The notes under the pieces were generated by a model. The model made no database searches. It saw nothing but the letters and a program-made list of their open reading frames with translations, and was not told the DNA's origin. Below are positions 1,422 through 10,238 of a stretch of 64,000 nt of DNA, in pieces; position 1 is the stretch's first letter, and each line of letters opens with the position of its first letter. The position numbers and the translations under genes are program-made. Source of the DNA: Acidobacteriota bacterium (GTDB lineage: Bacteria; Acidobacteriota; Vicinamibacteria; Vicinamibacterales; UBA2999); contig CANKJK010000004.1 of assembly GCA_947482665.1 (NCBI GenBank), forward strand, positions 124,001 to 188,000. Direction: 5' to 3'.

Positions 1422-2018
1422 ATGAAGCAGTTCGTATTGACGGCCCTGGCCGTGATGGCCCTCGCAGGCGGCATGGCGGCTCAAGGGCAGAAGGTGCCGA
1501 GCCCGGCTGGCACATCGGCTACGCAGGTTGGGCCGAAGTTCAGCAAGTGGATTGAGATCAGCTACGGGCGTCCCATCCTGCGCGGTCGCGCGGACATCTT
1601 TGGCGCCGGTGCAAACTACGGCAAGGGCCTGCTCGCGGGCGCGCCGATCTGGCGCGCGGGCGCAAACGTGTCCACGCGCCTCAATACGGAAGTGCCGCTG
1701 GTCATCGGCGGCAAGACCGTACCGGCCGGCGAGTACAGCGTGTTTATCGAGATCAAGGGCGAGAAGGACTGGACGTTCGTGCTCTCGAGCTACAGCGCAC
1801 TGGTCAACCCGAAGGAGCCGAAGCCGGATCACCTGTGGGGCGCCTACAACTACAAGACCGACAAGGACGTCGTGCGCGCACCGATGACCGTGTCGGCGTC
1901 GCCGATGCTCGTCGATCAGCTCACCTGGGGTTTCACCGACGTGACCGAGCAGGCTGGCCACCTGCAGCTCTCCTGGGCGAAGGCCGTCGCGTCGATCGCC
2001 TTCACCGTCGGGAATTAG
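1422..2018 (+). CDS. DUF2911 domain-containing exported protein
   Basis: A 198-residue protein with a signal peptide (MKQFVLTALAVMALAGGMAAQG). The ATG at 1422 has a strong AGGAGG Shine-Dalgarno at 1410-1415. The body matches the DUF2911 pattern: ISYGRPILRGR, IFG, YGKGLL, IWRAGAN, TEVPLVIGGKTVPAGEYSVF and DWTFVLS. The family is frequent in Acidobacteriota and Bacteroidota, is predicted to be periplasmic, and has no known function. The gene ends 17 nt inside the convergent apbE gene. A weak -10-like TAAGAT lies at 1395-1400. Confidence 0.85.
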   Translation: MKQFVLTALAVMALAGGMAAQGQKVPSPAGTSATQVGPKFSKWIEISYGRPILRGRADIFGAGANYGKGLLAGAPIWRAGANVSTRLNTEVPLVIGGKTVPAGEYSVFIEIKGEKDWTFVLSSYSALVNPKEPKPDHLWGAYNYKTDKDVVRAPMTVSASPMLVDQLTWGFTDVTEQAGHLQLSWAKAVASIAFTVGN

Positions 2019-3036
2019 GCGCCCGCCGGAAGCGCGTCTTCAACGCTTCCGACATCACCAGTTCCACACGACCTGATGTTCCCCGGTAGGCGATGACCGC
2101 CATCGCGCCGGGGAACGATTCCACCAGCGCCAGTCCCTTTTCGGGCCCCAGCAGATACGCAGGCTTGCTCAACGCATCGGCGAGCGTCGCATCCGGCGAG
2201 ATGATCGTCACGCTGAGCGCGGCATTGCTGGGCGCCATCGTGCGCGGGTCGATGAGATGCCCGTAGGTCTTGCCGCCTGACACGAAATAGTTGTGGTAGC
2301 CGCCCGAGGTGGAGACGCCTCCGCCATCGACCTGCAGCGAGCCGAGCAGTGCCGTCGGGGTCTCCGGGTCCTCGATGCCCACCTCCCACCGGGCCTTGTT
2401 CAAGGGCGTGCCGACGAGATACTGGTTGCCGCCGGCGTCCACAAGCCCTGAGTAGCCGCGCCGCTGCAACACGCGTCCGGCCACTTCGACTGCGAAGCCC
2501 TTGGCGATGCCGCCGAGGTCGAGCTCCACGCCCTTCCGTGTGAAGCGCACTGTGTGCGTGGCCTCGTCGAGGACGACGTTTTCGTAGCCGACGATGGCCC
2601 GGACCTGCTGCAGTTCGGTGGCGCTGGGCACGTGCGGCCGTTTGTCGTGAAAGCCCCAGAGCCGGACGAGCGGTCCCACCGTGATGTCGAACGCGCCGCC
2701 GCTGGCGCGGCTGACCCGCCGCGCCGCGGTCAGCACGCTCCACATCGGGTCGCTGACCTTCACGGGACGCAGTGCCGCGTCGGTATTGATGCGCGTCAGC
2801 TCGCTGTCCGGCTTGTAGTTGCTCATCAGCCGGTCGACCTCGACCATGGCGGCAAACGCCTCGTCGATCGCGGCGGCCCGTGAGGCGGCCACGCCGCCGG
2901 TGGCCTCAACCGTGATGGTGGTGCCCATGAGAACCCGGCGCACCGTCGTGGTGAGCGGGCCCTCGGCGCGCGGGACGGCCGACGCTAGCAGGAGCGCCGC
3001 CGCGAGGATGCCGGAGCACGTAAGGCTCCGGCGCAT
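2002..3036 (-). CDS. apbE: FAD:protein FMN transferase (ApbE family)
   Basis: A 344-residue exported enzyme that links FMN covalently to Ser or Thr of target proteins on the outer face of the membrane, using FAD and Mg2+. Visible family signatures are LMGTTITVEATG near the N-terminus, GGAFDITVGPLVRLWGF, VELDLGGIAKGFAVE, VDAGGNQYLVG, HLIDPRTMAP and DATLADALSKPAYLLG. The N-terminus (MRRSLTCSGILAAALLLASAVPRAEG) is a signal peptide. The gene is last in a compact minus-strand cassette and abuts the DUF3570 gene at 3036, so that protein is the obvious candidate target. The gene tail overlaps the convergent DUF2911 gene. Confidence 0.93.
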   Translation of the reverse strand: MRRSLTCSGILAAALLLASAVPRAEGPLTTTVRRVLMGTTITVEATGGVAASRAAAIDEAFAAMVEVDRLMSNYKPDSELTRINTDAALRPVKVSDPMWSVLTAARRVSRASGGAFDITVGPLVRLWGFHDKRPHVPSATELQQVRAIVGYENVVLDEATHTVRFTRKGVELDLGGIAKGFAVEVAGRVLQRRGYSGLVDAGGNQYLVGTPLNKARWEVGIEDPETPTALLGSLQVDGGGVSTSGGYHNYFVSGGKTYGHLIDPRTMAPSNAALSVTIISPDATLADALSKPAYLLGPEKGLALVESFPGAMAVIAYRGTSGRVELVMSEALKTRFRRAPNSRR

Positions 3037-4130
3037 CAGTGCTTGAGGGGCACGCGGAGGGCGGCCGTGACGGTTGCGGCCTGGAACTTCGTCGTGTTCC
3101 GGTAGTACTCGTACTGGAGCGTGAGGCTGGTGCCCTGGCGGAAGGCCATCAGCCCCTGCTTCGGCGTGAAGTTCAGTCGGCCCGTGTAGAGATCCGCGTC
3201 AAACGGGAAGATGCGGAAGTCCGCGGTGAAGAACTCCGGCTGGCCCGTGTAGACGGGTCGGTAGAAGGAGGCGCCGGTCTGTTCGTGCCGGCGATACACC
3301 CCGGCGATGGTGAGCTGCGGACTCACCTCGCGCGAGAGTCCGGCCGACCACGTGTTGGCGCGCACCTGCCAGTCGTCCTGGTAGCGGCGGAAGTCGGCTT
3401 CGAGATACATCCGCCCGGGCAGTGCCTGGCGGAGCTTCGCTGTGATCGAGTGCCGCAGGCGGAGCTCGGGGTGGTTGCCGAGCATGCGAACGCCGTCGAC
3501 GTTGGCGCGCAGGAACACGTTGTTCTGGAAGCCTGTGATCCGGCTGACCTCGTAGCCCAGTTGCACGGCCGTGCCCTTCGTCAGGGTCTGGGTGACGGTG
3601 CCGAACGCCGAGTGGGCGTACTGCCGGGCGACATCCTCGCTCGGATGGAGCACCGGCTGGTTGAGGGAGAAGGCGTAGCCACCTGCGATCGTCGTGTTCG
3701 CCTGATTGAGCGTCCGCGAGATCGAGGTCGAGCCCGTCGTGGCGGTGTAGAACTGCTCGCGGCTGAATTCGCCGCCGACCGAGACCTTCGTGTCGCCGTA
3801 CTTCCGGAAGAGCGAGGCGTTCACATAGGCGCGGGCATTGTAGGCGCCGTCCGGGTGGCAGCGGATGCAGGAATCCGACGCCGCCGAGATGGCGTCCACG
3901 CCGAAGCTGGCCCGGAGGCCGGTGCGCGTGGTGAAGTCGCGGCTCAGCTCGCCCGAGGGACTGAGCACGGTCACGCCGCGCGAATCCGTGAAGGCGTGCA
4001 TCGAGATGCCGTAGGACTCCTCGGCGGGCTGCTGCGCCGTGACCGGCCGCCCCACCACGAGCGCCACACCCATACCTGCCGCGGCAACCGCCGCGGCGAT
4101 GAGCAGGCCGCTCCGCTTACTTGCAGCCAC
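3036..4130 (-). CDS. DUF3570 family exported protein with a CXXCH motif and an ApbE-like acceptor motif
   Basis: About 364 residues. I prefer the GTG at 4130: it gives a clean signal peptide ending RPVTAQQ and overlaps the end of the DUF4266 gene, whereas an upstream ATG at 4196 would overlap that gene by 80 nt. The mature N-terminus has a DUF3570-like region (SRGVTVLSPSGELSRDF, LRASFGVDAIS), and the rest is many amphipathic strands typical of an outer-membrane barrel. DAISAAS (3876-3896) resembles the ApbE flavinylation consensus D-x-x-S/T-G/A-A-S/T, and three residues later comes CIRCH (3855-3869), a c-type heme site. The neighbours are ApbE, DUF4266, a TlpA-like thioredoxin and a CXXCH lipoprotein. 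Function is unknown; a redox role is inferred. Confidence 0.75.
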   Translation of the reverse strand: MAASKRSGLLIAAAVAAAGMGVALVVGRPVTAQQPAEESYGISMHAFTDSRGVTVLSPSGELSRDFTTRTGLRASFGVDAISAASDSCIRCHPDGAYNARAYVNASLFRKYGDTKVSVGGEFSREQFYTATTGSTSISRTLNQANTTIAGGYAFSLNQPVLHPSEDVARQYAHSAFGTVTQTLTKGTAVQLGYEVSRITGFQNNVFLRANVDGVRMLGNHPELRLRHSITAKLRQALPGRMYLEADFRRYQDDWQVRANTWSAGLSREVSPQLTIAGVYRRHEQTGASFYRPVYTGQPEFFTADFRIFPFDADLYTGRLNFTPKQGLMAFRQGTSLTLQYEYYRNTTKFQAATVTAALRVPLKH

Positions 4131-4344
4131 AGCCACCGCCCTGCAGGCTGTTGCCGCCGGCCGCGCCTTCGCGGGACTCCTGCCAGTGGCTGGCAAATGC
4201 CGCGAGTTCGCCGTCCGGGCTGAACTGCATGCACGGGCTCGCCAGGCGGCCGCGCTGCCATGGCTGTACCGTGGCGCAGGCAGTGAGGAGCGTGCTCACA
4301 GAGAGGACAGCCGCCAGCACGGCCAGGCGGACGAGTCGGGGCAT
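4117..4344 (-). CDS. DUF4266 small lipoprotein with C-terminal Cys-Gly-Cys tail
   Basis: A 75-residue lipoprotein. MPRLVRLAVLAAVLSVSTLLTAC ends in a lipobox (LTAC), giving a mature peptide of about 53 residues. Conserved-looking features are VQPWQRGRLASPCMQF, a SREGAAGG stretch and the extreme C-terminus GGGCGCK, which match my memory of DUF4266. The start is the ATG at 4344 overlapping the thioredoxin stop (TGATG); a GTG at 4347 is also possible. The end overlaps the proposed start of the DUF3570 gene. DUF4266 and DUF3570 genes are usually found together, so they may form a complex. The paired cysteines could bind metal, receive a modification or be reduced by the neighbouring thioredoxin. 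Confidence 0.82.
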   Translation of the reverse strand: MPRLVRLAVLAAVLSVSTLLTACATVQPWQRGRLASPCMQFSPDGELAAFASHWQESREGAAGGNSLQGGGCGCK

Positions 4345-4871
4345 CACTTCTCCTCCAGGAGTTGGACGATCTCACGGCGGTAGTCGGCCAGGACCTTGTC
4401 GTTGAAACCCTCGTGCGCGAAGCGGGTGACGCCCTTGCGATCGATGAGGTAGGAGGTGGGCATGCCCTTGAGCTTGAAGCCGGTTGGCGCCACGCCCTTC
4501 GGGTCGAAGAGCACGCGCACCGAGTGCCCGCGGCCTTCGAGAAACGTATTGGCGGCCTTGCGGTCTTCGTCCACATTGATGGCGACCACTTCGAGCCCGT
4601 GCTCCCGGTGCTCGCGGTAGAGCGCGTCGTAGGCGGGGAACGCGACCTTGCAGGGCACGCACCAGCTGGCCCAGATATCCACGAGCACGACCTTGCCCTT
4701 GAGCGATTCCAGGGAGACCGGCGTGCCCGCGGCGTCAGGCAGCGTGATGGACGGTGTGGTTTTCGGCACCAGGGCATCAGCGGCCAGAGCCGCGCGGCCC
4801 GGCGCGCCGAGCGCACCGACGACCAGGAGGGCACCCAAGAGCGGCGCAGAGAGACGAACGGGAATCATCAT
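4344..4871 (-). CDS. TlpA-like periplasmic thioredoxin
   Basis: A 175-residue thiol:disulfide oxidoreductase with an N-terminal signal or anchor segment (residues about 5-30) and a thioredoxin fold of the AhpC/TSA-Redoxin (TlpA/ResA) type. The active site is WCVPC (Trp70, Cys71, Cys74), preceded by GKVVLVDIWAS. The cis-Pro loop is KGMPTSYLID. ATG codons at 4871 and 4868 both overlap the upstream stop codon. In this cassette it probably keeps the cysteines of the CXXCH proteins or the DUF4266 tail reduced before cofactor attachment. That role is inferred from position and from the CcmG/ResA precedent. Confidence 0.88.
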   Translation of the reverse strand: MMIPVRLSAPLLGALLVVGALGAPGRAALAADALVPKTTPSITLPDAAGTPVSLESLKGKVVLVDIWASWCVPCKVAFPAYDALYREHREHGLEVVAINVDEDRKAANTFLEGRGHSVRVLFDPKGVAPTGFKLKGMPTSYLIDRKGVTRFAHEGFNDKVLADYRREIVQLLEEK

Positions 4872-5404
4872 CGGGTTTGCGCCGCTGCGTTGTTCACGAT
4901 CCAGGTGCGTACGAGGTCTGCCTTGCCCTGCGCATTGCCGCTCCAGTAGCGATACATGCTGCCGCCGCGCTGCGTGAAGCGGATGAGGACGCTGTTGGTG
5001 TTGCCCGCCGCCACTGCGCGCATGACCTGTGCGTAAGTGGTCATTGAGTAGTTGCCGTAGGGCCGGCTGCTGGAATGGCAGCGGGTGCAGTCGGCGTCGA
5101 AGATGGGTTTCAGGTCCTGTTGATAGGCCACGGTGATGGTGGCCGGTGCCGGAGGCGTTGTCGTGGTCGGGCTCCCCGCGGACCCGGTAGCCGGAGTCGT
5201 GGCTGGTGTGGTGCTGGCCGTGGTGCGGCCGGACCGATCATCACCGCTTCCGGTCGAGGTTGAGGTCGACCCCGAGGCGGAGATCGCACTTGGCGCCGTG
5301 ATGGAACTCACCGTGTCCGTGGGAGCCTGCTGCGTGATGCAGCCGATCGCAAGCACGGCCGAGGCGGTGATGCCGAGAGTTGCGAGAGTGAGACGGGTGT
5401 ACAC
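4868..5404 (-). CDS. c-type cytochrome-like lipoprotein (single CXXCH)
   Basis: About 178 residues. The first plausible start is the GTG at 5404, which gives VYTRLTLATLGITASAVLAIGC with a lipobox (AIGC). The frame stays open to 5485, but upstream starts would put extra residues before the signal sequence. A Ser/Thr/Pro-rich linker of about 70 residues follows, then a small cytochrome domain: VAYQQDLKPIFDADCTRCHSS carries the heme motif, and Met residues downstream (YSMTTYAQVM, GGSMYRY) could be axial ligands. It is the first gene of the redox cassette and overlaps the thioredoxin gene by 4 nt. The linker suggests a surface-tethered electron carrier. Confidence 0.78.
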   Translation of the reverse strand: MYTRLTLATLGITASAVLAIGCITQQAPTDTVSSITAPSAISASGSTSTSTGSGDDRSGRTTASTTPATTPATGSAGSPTTTTPPAPATITVAYQQDLKPIFDADCTRCHSSSRPYGNYSMTTYAQVMRAVAAGNTNSVLIRFTQRGGSMYRYWSGNAQGKADLVRTWIVNNAAAQTR

Positions 5405-5590: not shown

Positions 5591-6517
5591 CTACTCCCGC
5601 GGGAGCGGGAGCACGAGTGTGTCGCAGAGCTCCGTCAGGTCTTCTGGGAGCGGCGCCTCGAGGGCGAGCGGCGCTCCACTTGCCGGATGCGGCAGCGTGA
5701 GTCGCCAGGCGTGCAGGGCCTGGCGAGGGAAGGTGTCGCCCGGCCGGCCGTAGACCTGGTCGCCGACGATGGGCCAGCCGCTCGCGGAGAGATGCACGCG
5801 GATCTGGTGCATGCGGCCGGTGATGAGCTCGCAGCGCACCAGCGCGGCGTGCTCGCCGCGGGCCACGACGGTGTAGCGCGTTTCCGATGGGCTCCCGTCC
5901 TCGCGCACGGCGACGCGCCGGCGATCGCGAGGGTCGCCGCCAAGCGGGAACGTGATGGCGCCGGAACCCGGCCGTGGCTGGCCATGCACCACCGCGAGGT
6001 AGGTCTTGCTGGCGAGGCCAGCGGTCATGGTCCGCTGCGCCTTCCGGTGCACCACGAGAGACTTCGAGACCAGGAGGACTCCCGAGGTGTCCTTGTCCAG
6101 TCGATGAAGCAAGCGCGGTGTGTCGTCGGACGTGGAGCCCTGGCCGAGATAGCCGAGGATGCCGTTGAACAACGTGCCGGCCGCGTGTTTGTAGGACGGG
6201 TGGACGACGACGCCCGCTGGCTTGTTGAGGGCGAGGAGTGCGTCGTCCTCGAAGAGGACGTCGAGTGCCTGAGCCTCGGGCTTGGGGAGGGCCCGCTCGG
6301 CCATCACCTCCTCCCCGCCCACGGCGATTTCGTCCCCCACGGCCACACCCACGGCGGGGCGCCCCGCCGCCCGGCCGTTCACCGTGACGAGTCCTGCGGC
6401 AATCCAGCGCTGCACCTTCGTCCGCGAAATCCGAGGCACCTCTGGGAGATGCCGGAGGATCACCTGGTCGAGGCGCAGGGTACGGTCGCCGCGGTCCGCG
6501 GTGAAGCTTCTCGGCAT
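5591..6517 (-). CDS. RluA-family RNA pseudouridine synthase
   Basis: A 308-residue enzyme isomerising uridine to pseudouridine in rRNA or tRNA. An S4 RNA-binding domain covers about residues 17-75 ([20 protein letters not shown]). The catalytic domain has the family motif HRLDKDTSG at 138-146 with catalytic Asp141, and later [10 protein letters not shown] and GDQVYG. The S4 plus catalytic layout matches RluC/RluD (23S rRNA), but the exact target cannot be assigned. The ATG at 6517 has an AGGAGG Shine-Dalgarno, so this mRNA is leadered, in contrast to the divergent msrA 20 bp away. Confidence 0.92.
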
Positions 6518-6525
6518 GGACCTCC

Positions 6526-6531
6526 TATAAT
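6526..6531 (+). promoter_or_regulatory. -10 element TATAAT of msrA, leaderless spacing
   Basis: A perfect TATAAT ends 6 nt before the msrA ATG at 6538 and no ribosome-binding site is present, so transcription should begin at or within a base of the start codon. Confidence 0.6.
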
Positions 6532-6537
6532 GGCGCG

Positions 6538-7182
6538 ATGGCCATGAACCTGCGTCTGCCGCGGCCGGACCAGGCGCTGCCGGGCCGGGCCGAGGCGCTG
6601 CCCGTCCGTGAGGCGCATGTCGTCAACGGGCACCGGCAGGTGCCGCCGTTCCCCGATGGGACCGAACAGGTGATCGTGGGCCTGGGCTGCTTCTGGGGCG
6701 CGGAGCGCAAGTTCTGGCAGACCGAGGGGGTCTACAGCACCGCCGTGGGCTATGCCGGTGGCTACACCCCCAATCCGACGTATCAGGAAGTGTGTTCCGG
6801 CATGACTGGCCACACGGAAGTCGTGCTGGTGGTCTTTGACCCCGCGGCCTGCCCCGTTGAGGAACTGCTGCGGGTGTTCTGGGAAAGCCACGACCCCACG
6901 CAGGGGATGCGGCAGGGGAATGACGTGGGCACGCAATATCGGTCGGCGTTCTACACGACCACACCTGACCAGGCCGCCGCTGCCGTGGCCTCGCGGGCGC
7001 TCTATCAGGATCGGCTGACGGCTGCAGGGTTTGGACGGATCACGACGGAGATCGCCGACGCGCCGGCGTTCTATTACGCCGAGGATTACCACCAGCAGTA
7101 CCTCGCCAAGAACCCGAATGGCTACTGCGGCCTCGGGGGCACGGGAGTGAACTGCCCGGTGGGTGTGACGGCGGCGCGCTGA
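6538..7182 (+). CDS. msrA: Peptide-methionine (S)-S-oxide reductase MsrA
   Basis: A 214-residue repair enzyme reducing methionine-S-sulfoxide in proteins and free peptides. The catalytic motif GCFWG is at 50-54 (nucleophile Cys51), followed by [12 protein letters not shown], the family's substrate-binding stretch ([12 protein letters not shown]) and EDYHQQYL. Cysteines in the C-terminal tail ([14 protein letters not shown]) are the likely resolving residues. About 40 residues precede the catalytic core, somewhat more than in minimal MsrA, with no obvious signal peptide, so it is probably cytoplasmic. The start is either the ATG at 6538 or the second ATG at 6544; the -10 spacing favours 6538. 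Confidence 0.96.
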
Positions 7183-7221
7183 GCGCGCCGGTCTTCAAGA
7201 AGGACGAGCGGGAACAGACTG

Positions 7222-7647
7222 ATGAGCAGAGTTGTTTACGAACTGGCGAAGGCGGCCCCCGATCAGGAGCGGCTGCGGGCGGACCGCAAGCTCCGCATCG
7301 TGACCGCCGCGGAAGAAGGTCTCGGCGTGAATGCCGTGCCCAACGGCGTCTATGGCTATACCTACTCGCCCGCGCTGGCGAATTCGCCGCTCTATGCGGA
7401 GCGCCGGTTCCGGTGTTACGAGACGCAGCGCCTGGCTGACGGCACTGTTCACCTCCTCGGATTTGTGTCGGAGGCCGACGCCGCCAAGTTGCGGGATCAG
7501 ACCGAGGCGGTGGAGGTCTGCCTGCAGCCAGAGCCGGAAGAGGGCGCCGAGTATTTCGTGGACCTGGAGTTCTCGCGCATCCTGCACCACCGCATCGTGG
7601 CCGTCCGCACCGAGCATGGCGTGACGATGAAGGTCGGGCCGGCCTAG
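7222..7647 (+). CDS. Hypothetical protein, 141 residues
   Basis: A cytoplasmic-looking protein with no signal peptide or membrane segment. Third codon positions are strongly G/C, so it is probably real. Sequence features are an Arg/Lys-rich N-terminal part (QERLRADRKLRIV), a Tyr-rich central part (NGVYGYTYSP), and a C-terminal acidic section (VCLQPEPEEGAEYFVDLEF). I do not recognise the family. It sits between msrA and a convergent P-type ATPase gene and overlaps neither. There is no clear Shine-Dalgarno, only an AAGAAGGACGAG stretch around 7197-7208, which is rather far from the ATG. Confidence 0.75.
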   Translation: MSRVVYELAKAAPDQERLRADRKLRIVTAAEEGLGVNAVPNGVYGYTYSPALANSPLYAERRFRCYETQRLADGTVHLLGFVSEADAAKLRDQTEAVEVCLQPEPEEGAEYFVDLEFSRILHHRIVAVRTEHGVTMKVGPA

Positions 7648-7664
7648 GCGCGGCCTCGACAGCA

Positions 7665-10238
7665 TCACAGGGACGCCGTGCGTGCGGCGTCCTTGAGCCG
7701 CGCCTGCCAGAGGGGCTTCAGCCGTTCGAGCACGCCCAGCACCAGCACCCCCGCGCCGAGCACGAGGAGCAGGTCGTCCGCGTGCAGCGGACCGAAGCGG
7801 AACAGGCGGCTGGCGAGCGGCCAGCGCAGCGTCAGCGTCAGCATCCCCGTCACCACCAGCAGCACCCACGCGAGCGCCGGATTCGAGAGGCGGAACGCGG
7901 CGGTCAGCGACGCGCTGAACGAGCGGTTCACGAAGATCAGCGCGACGATGGCGAACACGAGCGAGAAGAACGTGAGCGCTCGTACCTCGGTGTCCGGCAT
8001 GCCCCGGTGCGTAGCCACCACGAAGATCGTCCCAACAAGCACCAGCGCCAGTGCGCCCTGCAGCAGGCTCCACCCCACCATCGCGGCGGAGAAGATGGGC
8101 TCATCCGGAGCCCGTGGCGGGCGCCGCATCACATTCGCCTCTGCGCGCTCGGCTTCAAAGACCATGGAGCACACCGGGTCGATCACCATCTCGAGAAACG
8201 CGATGTGCATCGGGCCGAAGAGCACCGGCAAGCCGAGTACGAGGGGGAGCAGCGCCAGTCCGGCGATGGGCACATGCACGGCGACGATGAAGGCCATGGC
8301 CTTGCGCAGGTTGTCGTAGATGCGGCGGCCCAGACGAACGGCGGCCACGATGGAGCCGAAGTCGTCATCGAGCAGGACCAGCGCGGAGGCCTCGCGTGCC
8401 ACGTCGGTGCCGCGGCCACCCATCGCGATACCGATGTGCGCGGCCTTGAGGGACGGCGCGTCGTTGACGCCGTCGCCCGTCATGGCCACCACCTCGCCGT
8501 TGGCCTTGAGCGCGCTGACGATGCGCAGCTTCTGCTCGGGCATGATGCGCGCGAAGACGGTGGCCGTCCGCACCCGCTCGCGCAGCTGGGCGTCGTCGAG
8601 GGCGCTCAGGTCACCGCCGCTCACAACGGCGTGTCCGGTGTCGAGACCCACCTCCTGCGCGATCGCCAGCGCCGTGGCGGGGTAGTCGCCGGTAATCATC
8701 ACCACCCGAATGCCGGCGGACTGGCACTCGCGGACGGCGTCGGCGGCACTGGCACGCAGGGGGTCCGCGAGACCGACGAGCCCGGAAAAGCGGAAGGCAA
8801 AGCCGGCCTGGGACTCCGGCAGGTCGCGTCCGTCCATGGTGGCCCCGGCCACACCCAGCACACGCAGACCGCGAGCGGCCATGGCCTCCACGGCCGCGGT
8901 CATGGCGGCCCGGGCCTGCACATCCAGCCGGCACAGCCCGAAGATGGCTTCCGGGGCGCCCTTTGCGGCGACCGCCAATGAGGCGGCACCGCCAGCGGGC
9001 TGCCACACCTGGGACATCGCCAGCAGCTCGGGCCGCAGTCCGTAGGACCGCACGACGGTGTCGCCCGTAGCGGAGGGAGGGCTGATGCCGGCGGGTCCGG
9101 TGCCGAGCGCGTGGATCGCCCGCTCCATCGGATCCACAGGTTCGGGGGCAGACGCGCGGACCGCTGTGCCGAGCAACTCCTGGAACGGAGCTGCGACCTC
9201 CGTGCTGGTGCCAGTGGCCGGCCTGAACGATGCCCCTGAAGGCAGGCACAGCTCGGCCACGGTCATCCGGTTCTCCGTGAGCGTGCCGGTCTTGTCCGTG
9301 CAGAGCACGGTGGCGGCGCCGAGCGCCTCGATCGCCGAGGCGCGCCGCGTCAGCACGCGGGCGCGCGAGATGCGCCAGGCGCCCATCGCCATGAACACGG
9401 TGAGGACGACGGGCAACTCCTCGGGCAGCATGGACATGCCGAGCGCGATGCCGCCGAGGAGGGCGTCGAGCCAGCCGCTGCGCAGGAACCCGTAGAGCAG
9501 CACGGCCAGCACGCTGACGCTGCCACCGATCACGGCAAACACGCGGACGAGTCGCCGGATCTCAGTCTGGAGGCGAGGCGCTTCCGCTTCCAGGCTGTTG
9601 AGAGACTGGCCGATGCGGCCGATTTCACTCCGCGCACCGGTGGCCGCGACCTCGCCCACAGCTGTGCCGCGCACGATGAGCGACCCGGAGAAGACGTAAG
9701 GCAGGTCGTCTCCGCCTGGGCGGGGCGCCGGCGTTGACGCGGACGGTGCCGGAGCCGCGACCTTGCGGACGGGGACGGACTCGCCTGTCAGGAGCGACTC
9801 GTCCGTGTGGAGATCCTGGGAGTCGAGCAGCACGGCGTCCGCGGGGACTCTGTCGCCCTCCCCGAGCACGAGCAGATCGCCCCGCACCACTTCCCGACCC
9901 GCGATGCGCCGCTGCTCGCCACCTCGAATCACCAGCGCGCGCGGACTCGTGAGGTCGCGCAGGGCTTCAAGCACACGCTCGGTGCGGGACTCCTGCACGA
10001 CGGTCACCAGGATCGAGAAGGTCGCGAATGCGAGGAGGATCAGGGCTTCCTGGAGACTGCCGAGCACCAGGTAGACCACGCCCCCTGCCAGCAGGAGCGC
10101 CAGCATGGGTTCGCGGACGACCTCCAGCACGATCCGGAACGGCGTGCGCCGTTCCGGTCGCGGGATTTCATTGAAGCCGTCCTCCGCGAGCCGGGCCTGC
10201 ACGGTGGCATCACTCAGTCCTGGTCCTATGGTCGCCAT
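7665..10238 (-). CDS. Cation-translocating P-type ATPase (P2-type, Ca2+ ATPase-like)
   Basis: An 857-residue ion pump. All P-type signatures are visible: an N-terminal cation-ATPase domain (SDATVQARLAEDGFNEIP), actuator motif TGES at 151-154, the membrane motif PEELP at 272-276, phosphorylation motif DKTGT at 315-319, and the hinge TGDGVNDAPSLK. About ten membrane segments are arranged as in P2-type pumps. The layout resembles bacterial Ca2+ ATPases (PacL, YloB), but PEELP replaces the PEGLP of classical Ca2+ pumps, so the ion is uncertain (Ca2+, Mn2+ or H+ are possible). No regulator or partner gene is adjacent. Confidence 0.9.
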   Translation of the reverse strand: MATIGPGLSDATVQARLAEDGFNEIPRPERRTPFRIVLEVVREPMLALLLAGGVVYLVLGSLQEALILLAFATFSILVTVVQESRTERVLEALRDLTSPRALVIRGGEQRRIAGREVVRGDLLVLGEGDRVPADAVLLDSQDLHTDESLLTGESVPVRKVAAPAPSASTPAPRPGGDDLPYVFSGSLIVRGTAVGEVAATGARSEIGRIGQSLNSLEAEAPRLQTEIRRLVRVFAVIGGSVSVLAVLLYGFLRSGWLDALLGGIALGMSMLPEELPVVLTVFMAMGAWRISRARVLTRRASAIEALGAATVLCTDKTGTLTENRMTVAELCLPSGASFRPATGTSTEVAAPFQELLGTAVRASAPEPVDPMERAIHALGTGPAGISPPSATGDTVVRSYGLRPELLAMSQVWQPAGGAASLAVAAKGAPEAIFGLCRLDVQARAAMTAAVEAMAARGLRVLGVAGATMDGRDLPESQAGFAFRFSGLVGLADPLRASAADAVRECQSAGIRVVMITGDYPATALAIAQEVGLDTGHAVVSGGDLSALDDAQLRERVRTATVFARIMPEQKLRIVSALKANGEVVAMTGDGVNDAPSLKAAHIGIAMGGRGTDVAREASALVLLDDDFGSIVAAVRLGRRIYDNLRKAMAFIVAVHVPIAGLALLPLVLGLPVLFGPMHIAFLEMVIDPVCSMVFEAERAEANVMRRPPRAPDEPIFSAAMVGWSLLQGALALVLVGTIFVVATHRGMPDTEVRALTFFSLVFAIVALIFVNRSFSASLTAAFRLSNPALAWVLLVVTGMLTLTLRWPLASRLFRFGPLHADDLLLVLGAGVLVLGVLERLKPLWQARLKDAARTASL

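Follow-up and report, generated by a model that had tools for sequence, protein, structure and literature searches.

Méheust et al. (2021; PMC8238504) described gene clusters that encode ApbE, a DUF3570 protein, a thioredoxin-like protein, and a DUF4266 protein, with and without DsbD. The DUF3570 protein of Chlorobium luteolum was shown to be flavinylated at [S/T]GA[S/T] motifs; redox cycling of the DUF4266 CxC tail was proposed; and some DUF3570 clusters carry an iron transporter (PMC8238504). The present analysis concerns a relative of this module from an Acidobacteriota genome of the class Vicinamibacteria: a five-gene cassette at 2002-5404, minus strand, of a 64,000-nucleotide (nt) stretch of contig CANKJK010000004.1, the whole of which is here termed the window. 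A first-pass annotation of the window had noted that DUF3570 and DUF4266 occur with ApbE elsewhere, and the published clusters bear that out. Its statement that the function had not been described does not hold, as both the module and C. luteolum DUF3570 flavinylation had been reported (PMC8238504).

The cassette and the Méheust module share four protein families, the gene order of most Acidobacteriota flavin-type clusters, exported proteins, and the DUF4266 CxC tail. The cassette differs in its DUF3570 protein, which has a CxxCH motif in the flavinylation loop, two extra invariant His residues, and an off-consensus flavinylation motif. Its clade differs further in a linked cytochrome lipoprotein and an ApbE that is sometimes dead or absent. 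A term search of the main text of PMC8238504 found no mention of CxxCH. What is new here, as judged by alignment, is the CxxCH motif at the flavinylation loop of DUF3570, together with a clade-specific cytochrome lipoprotein. The cassette probably is a heme-type variant of the ApbE-DUF3570-thioredoxin-DUF4266 module, serving electron transfer through a monoheme outer-membrane barrel, in which flavin is dispensable but probably still is added in the window's lineage.

Cyc2 is a monoheme 16-strand porin able to oxidize Fe(II) (PMC8406198). Like Cyc2, the window DUF3570 protein combines one CXXCH motif and 16 strands in one chain (the strands come from a moderate-confidence model). Unlike Cyc2, it has an internal heme loop, after strand 3, and an ApbE/TlpA/DUF4266 context. 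The Cyc2 motif AXPXFAR[Q/K][T/Y], five residues before CXXCH, and the N-terminal cytochrome are absent; the window protein has FGVDAISAASDS before CIRCH. Because it lacks this defining motif and the N-terminal heme position, its likeness to Cyc2 is one of working, not of membership. In MtrAB and PioAB, the barrel has 26 strands and its partner is a decaheme protein (PMC8406198). Here, too, an outer-membrane barrel would work with a cytochrome, but DUF3570 and the lipoprotein have one CxxCH each, and the modelled barrel has 16 strands.

A heme motif in the flavinylation loop

Of 193 genomes of the class searched by profile, 14 encode a close relative of the window DUF3570 protein. A GTDB-wide scan, with patterns from six of the 14, returned ten relatives, all within the same genomes; the close relatives that have named records are metagenome-assembled genomes of Acidobacteria and Vicinamibacteria. 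Flavin-type relatives from other classes came from a phylum-wide Pfam search. A plasmid search with DUF3570 gave only distant Vibrio matches, which served as a flavin-type reference, and flavin-type sampling comprises Acidobacteriota and one Vibrio. No relatives turned up in a scan of viral contigs, and a plasmid search with the cytochrome lipoprotein gave no match. The resulting DUF3570 alignment holds 43 proteins.

These fall into three types. The 14 heme-type proteins read DA[IV][ST][AG][AS]S-DSCxRCH; the 19 flavin-type proteins read Dxx[ST]G[AS]S-[PA]; and the 10 SAS-type proteins read Dxx[ST]SAS, then a second [ST][SG]AS. Residues D79 and S85 are invariant in all 43. The CxxCH motif lies three residues past the serine that ApbE flavinylates elsewhere, and occurs in all 14 members of the clade and in none of the 29 proteins outside it. 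The heme-type proteins form a single clade (support 100/100), with long internal branches and an arbitrary root.

Only five His or Cys residues are invariant in the 14: H45, C88, C91, H92, and H162. All are absent in the 29, and 13 of the 14 proteins contain exactly two cysteines. A CxxCH motif with two further co-occurring His residues would be the pattern expected of a bis-His heme c site, in which H92 probably is paired with H162 or H45. Cytochrome c assembly genes were matched in each of nine genomes tested. The protein thus combines CxxCH and predicted export with a cytochrome c assembly system, as a c-type cytochrome must.

The same five genes occur in 12 of the 14 genomes that have a heme-type DUF3570; of the two incomplete clusters, one has its ApbE cut off where the contig ends and the other lacks the gene. 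This recurrence, together with CxxCH in every heme-type DUF3570, argues that the cassette is no chance arrangement. The co-conservation that the first-pass annotation had proposed to look for therefore extends far beyond the window's genome.

The SAS type (L095-L097, L115, L117-L122) has TSAS plus the second motif in place of [ST]GAS, and a gene order that is mostly ApbE-DUF4266-DUF3570-TlpA. Its linked ApbE keeps the catalytic residues, an indication that Ser can stand in for the motif Gly.

Lipoprotein and thioredoxin partners

The cytochrome lipoprotein displays a lipobox (AIGC), a Pro/Thr/Ser-rich linker, CTRCH, and a conserved Met in GSMYRYWSG; CxxCH and one Met are invariant in the domain across the family alignment. 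Its gene is linked to DUF3570 in all 14 clusters of the heme type, but in 0 of the 29 other clusters. The idea that it is general to DUF3570 clusters was rejected on this count, and its gain, to judge from gene neighborhoods, belongs to the same event as the DUF3570 heme motif. Locus L120 has one weak lipoprotein match, about 4 kb away on the opposite strand.

Cytochrome c Pfam matches of the window lipoprotein (PccH, Haem_bd, PSCyt1) are weak and below gathering scores. Within the family, weak matches to PccH were found in 10 of 10 members and to PSCyt1 in 9 of 10; searching by fold with the modelled lipoprotein yielded nothing usable. The protein thus weakly resembles the PccH and PSCyt1 monoheme cytochromes in its CxxCH domain, and differs from them in its long Pro/Thr/Ser tether and in lacking a confident fold match. 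The lipoprotein gene of genome G046 contains one in-frame stop. At locus L086 (G147; about 6910-8999), DUF3570 lies between two lipoprotein copies and the gene order is altered.

TlpA is present in every one of the 43 clusters and DUF4266 in 42. TlpA retains WCxPC in all heme-type members, and the C-terminal CxC of DUF4266 is kept in all members. Moreover, TlpA and DUF4266 form a single fused frame in 15 of the 19 flavin-type clusters (L099-L102, L105-L114, L116), which argues for a thioredoxin that works on the DUF4266 CxC tail regardless of which cofactor DUF3570 carries. The last DUF4266 residue (window 4117-4125; L082-L124) follows the DUF3570 type: GCGCK in 14 of 14 heme-type, GCGCN in flavin-type, and GCGC[ST] in SAS-type clusters. 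This residue may mark contact with the DUF3570 site, or only descent.

The barrel model

AlphaFold2, run with ten sequences, modelled the window DUF3570 protein with 16 strands, a mean predicted local distance difference test (pLDDT) score of 72.6, and a predicted template-modelling score (pTM) of 0.68. The top Foldseek matches are OprD/Occ porins (E about 1e-9, TM 0.4-0.5), pointing to a porin-like outer-membrane barrel. The CxxCH loop, residues 84-95, follows strand 3. Mean loop length is about 10 residues after odd strands and about 5 after even strands; under the usual porin orientation, the longer odd-strand loops would place the heme site on the outer side. That side would also hold the H162 loop and the outer tip of the strand carrying H45.

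ApbE and its substrate

Alignment with solved ApbE/FmnB proteins finds the catalytic Ser, His, and Asp in the window ApbE. The possibility that this enzyme is already dead was rejected on these residues and on its STSGGYHNY, which resembles STSGSYRNY of solved ApbEs. Catalytic Ser and His are intact in nine clade members, the window included. In the ApbEs of G093 and G141, the Ser is replaced and the His-bearing stretch is missing; their ratio of nonsynonymous to synonymous substitution rates (dN/dS) is 0.36, versus 0.17-0.27 elsewhere. Genome G046 (97% complete) has no ApbE match anywhere, yet its DUF3570 still reads DAISAASDSCARCH. On the tree, the ApbE losses represent at least two separate events.

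The [S/T]GA[S/T] motif is absent at the window DUF3570 site (DAISAAS). The consensus is kept in one of the 14 clade members, G072, which reads a perfect DAITGAS. A second motif in the window protein, HEQTGAS, was considered and rejected: it is a stray within a "QTGAxFY" barrel stretch, and clade members do not conserve it. The modified Ser/Thr is the last residue of the ApbE motif, and a model substrate in which the motif Gly was changed to Ala retained about 50% flavinylation (PMC12052999).

Three genomes, G048, G072, and G081, contain the cluster ApbE as their sole ApbE, and have no FMN_bind or DUF2271 match (NqrB/RnfD, Flavodoxin_4, and FMN_red were not searched). This leaves DUF3570, reading DAITAAS in G048 and G081, as the obvious ApbE substrate there. 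The window's genome (3.53 Mb, 97% complete) has a second ApbE near two FMN_bind genes (G000 contig C3, about 105467-109341, L123), so the cassette ApbE probably is dedicated to the cassette. A gene with iron-sulfur-type cysteine motifs adjoins that second ApbE. Among the flavin-type clusters, 18 of 18 readable ApbEs (L098-L114, L116, L024) have Gly at the catalytic Asp position (Vc Asp285).

Which cofactor, and for what purpose

The operon, the motif position, the co-occurrence, the invariant ligands, and the loss of ApbE are read directly from the sequence. Several points weigh against a heme-type electron-transfer barrel that still receives flavin. The named heme-type members are drafts from metagenome assemblies. 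In the model, which contains no heme, the heme loop falls below a pLDDT of 50. Of the 14 members, 13 depart from the flavinylation consensus (three read SASS), and the fourth residue past the catalytic Asp is K in 8 of 10 readable heme-clade ApbEs and T in all flavin- and SAS-type ApbEs. Because ApbE lacks Ser and His in two members and is missing altogether from one genome, flavin mononucleotide (FMN) evidently is not needed for the module; and because S85 is invariant even in ApbE-less G046, its conservation need not mean flavinylation. The main rival, pure cofactor replacement, builds on such points: the clade would carry heme only, its DUF3570 would be unflavinylated, and ApbE would be a remnant, an enzyme for other substrates, or a flavin adenine dinucleotide (FAD) hydrolase. 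It draws on the G to A or A to S motif changes, on the conserved S85 in G046, and on the missing ApbE of that genome along with the lost catalytic residues and faster protein evolution in G093 and G141. However, the other nine readable ApbEs keep Ser and His and are under purifying selection (dN/dS as above); three genomes have a sole ApbE and neither substrate family searched; and one member retains the perfect consensus. Replacement is on balance unlikely, though still the strongest competitor. Heme together with covalent flavin, as the first-pass annotation had it, is possible from the motifs, but that claim is weakened by the window's G to A change and by at least two losses or breakdowns of ApbE within the clade. 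That the window's lineage carries FMN next to heme is nearly as plausible as that it does not. A fuller version is more tentative: one barrel loop in which covalent FMN (Ser85) and covalent heme c (Cys88/Cys91) are separated by three residues, the same peptide being modified by ApbE and by the cytochrome c machinery, and a clade that steps from flavin only, to both, to heme only.

Two further alternatives concern function. The cassette could be a convergent Cyc2-like iron oxidase, its cytochrome-porin moving electrons from dissolved Fe(II) to the lipoprotein cytochrome. Its gross architecture, one CXXCH and 16 strands in a short chain, is Cyc2-like (PMC8406198); a periplasmic monoheme cytochrome is linked; and some DUF3570 clusters include an iron transporter (PMC8238504). 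An iron oxidase nonetheless is improbable: the Cyc2 AXPXFAR[QK][TY] motif is absent, the heme follows strand 3 instead of being N-terminal, no metal-specific gene is linked across the clade, and the direction of electron flow is not readable from sequence. Alternatively, CxxCH could be a thiol or metal site served by a TlpA/DUF4266 relay, for surface thiol chemistry with no heme. The near-constant presence and frequent fusion of TlpA and DUF4266 make thiol transfer central, and the CxC tail is kept throughout. But the motif is CxxCH, not CxxC; its His and two more His are invariant in step; and it arises with a second CxxCH protein in all 14 clusters, with cytochrome c assembly genes present. 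A heme-free thiol site therefore is very improbable.

How the cassette might work

In the mechanism that we infer, which covers heme attachment, an outer-membrane barrel, FMN on Ser85, and the order of the partners, the flavin type would be the point of departure: by alignment, ApbE would place FMN on the serine in the loop that joins strands 3 and 4. In the Vicinamibacteria clade, the same loop would have gained a c-type heme motif three residues downstream. The cytochrome c machinery would attach heme to both DUF3570 and the lipoprotein, while TlpA would keep the CxxCH cysteines, the DUF4266 CxC tail, or both, reduced. In the window's lineage, where ApbE remains competent, Ser85 next to the heme probably still receives FMN, perhaps incompletely; sister lineages would have given up flavin. 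The barrel would enter the outer membrane and act as a small one-chain redox conduit or surface redox site. On the periplasmic side, the lipid-anchored monoheme lipoprotein, on its flexible tether, would pass electrons to or from the barrel heme.

Earlier work (PMC8238504) noted that flavins and cytochromes can interchange, between domains and partners, in envelope electron transfer. Here the interchange concerns one site in one family, and the natural ApbE losses are built-in controls. In these genomes, one redox cofactor appears to have been exchanged for, or joined by, another. That makes a direct experiment possible: a single fold could be examined carrying FMN, heme, or possibly the two at once, and DUF3570 could be assayed as a redox-active porin. 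If the heme-type reading is correct, DUF3570 would join Cyc2 as a second single-chain monoheme porin and would bear on how Acidobacteria exchange electrons.

Operon layout and setting

The five tightly packed minus-strand genes (cytochrome lipoprotein, TlpA, DUF4266, DUF3570, ApbE) were all found where the first-pass annotation had placed them, and Pfam matches agree with its family names: ApbE PF02424 (E-value 4e-82), DUF3570 PF12094 (2e-29), DUF4266 PF14086 (3e-18), and a Redoxin/AhpC-TSA match for the TlpA-like protein (about 1e-20). The CTRCH, WCVPC, GGGCGCK, and CIRCH motifs all were located. Its reading as a conserved, exported redox module with two heme-motif proteins stands, and the catalytic residues of the window ApbE are intact; it overlooked the placement of CxxCH at the flavinylation loop and the clade specificity of the lipoprotein.

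Coordinates of cassette features in the window
Feature	Position	Strand	Basis
Monoheme c-type cytochrome lipoprotein, tethered (putative)	4868..5404	-	Sequence, family alignment, weak Pfam matches
TlpA/ResA-like exported thioredoxin, WCVPC active site	4344..4871	-	Pfam/NCBIfam
DUF4266 lipoprotein, C-terminal GGGCGCK	4117..4344	-	PF14086; ATG 4344, alternative start GTG 4347
DUF3570 heme-type, signal peptide and predicted 16-strand outer-membrane barrel	3036..4130	-	PF12094, AlphaFold2, Foldseek
ApbE FAD:protein FMN transferase	2002..3036	-	PF02424, alignment with solved ApbE/FmnB, residue table
DAISAAS, former or degenerate flavinylation motif (D79 to S85)	3876..3896	-	Aligns with D-x-x-[ST]-G-A-S of flavin-type
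CIRCH heme c motif (C88, C91, H92), loop between strands 3 and 4	3855..3869	-	14/14 versus 0/29
His45, candidate distal heme ligand	3996..3998	-	Invariant in 14/14 heme-type, 0/29 elsewhere
His162, candidate distal heme ligand, LHP loop between strands 7 and 8	3645..3647	-	Invariant in 14/14, 0/29 elsewhere

Most junctions overlap by 1-4 nt, as the annotation had said. The cytochrome/TlpA overlap, read from the sequence, is 4 nt; the TlpA/DUF4266 overlap is 1 nt with ATG 4344 or 4 nt with GTG 4347; and the DUF3570/ApbE overlap is 1 nt. The exception is the DUF4266/DUF3570 overlap of 14-20 nt, set by whether DUF3570 starts at GTG 4130 or at the alternative GTG 4136. A promoter scan found no sigma-70-like site, and no other neighboring gene is conserved across the heme-type clade.

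The flanks (478-2018 and 5591-10238) are not conserved with the cassette. By Pfam, they encode a Phenol_MetA_deg-like barrel protein, a DUF2911 protein (plus strand), and an RluA-family pseudouridine synthase, followed by MsrA-like and cation-ATPase-like genes recognized by reading only.

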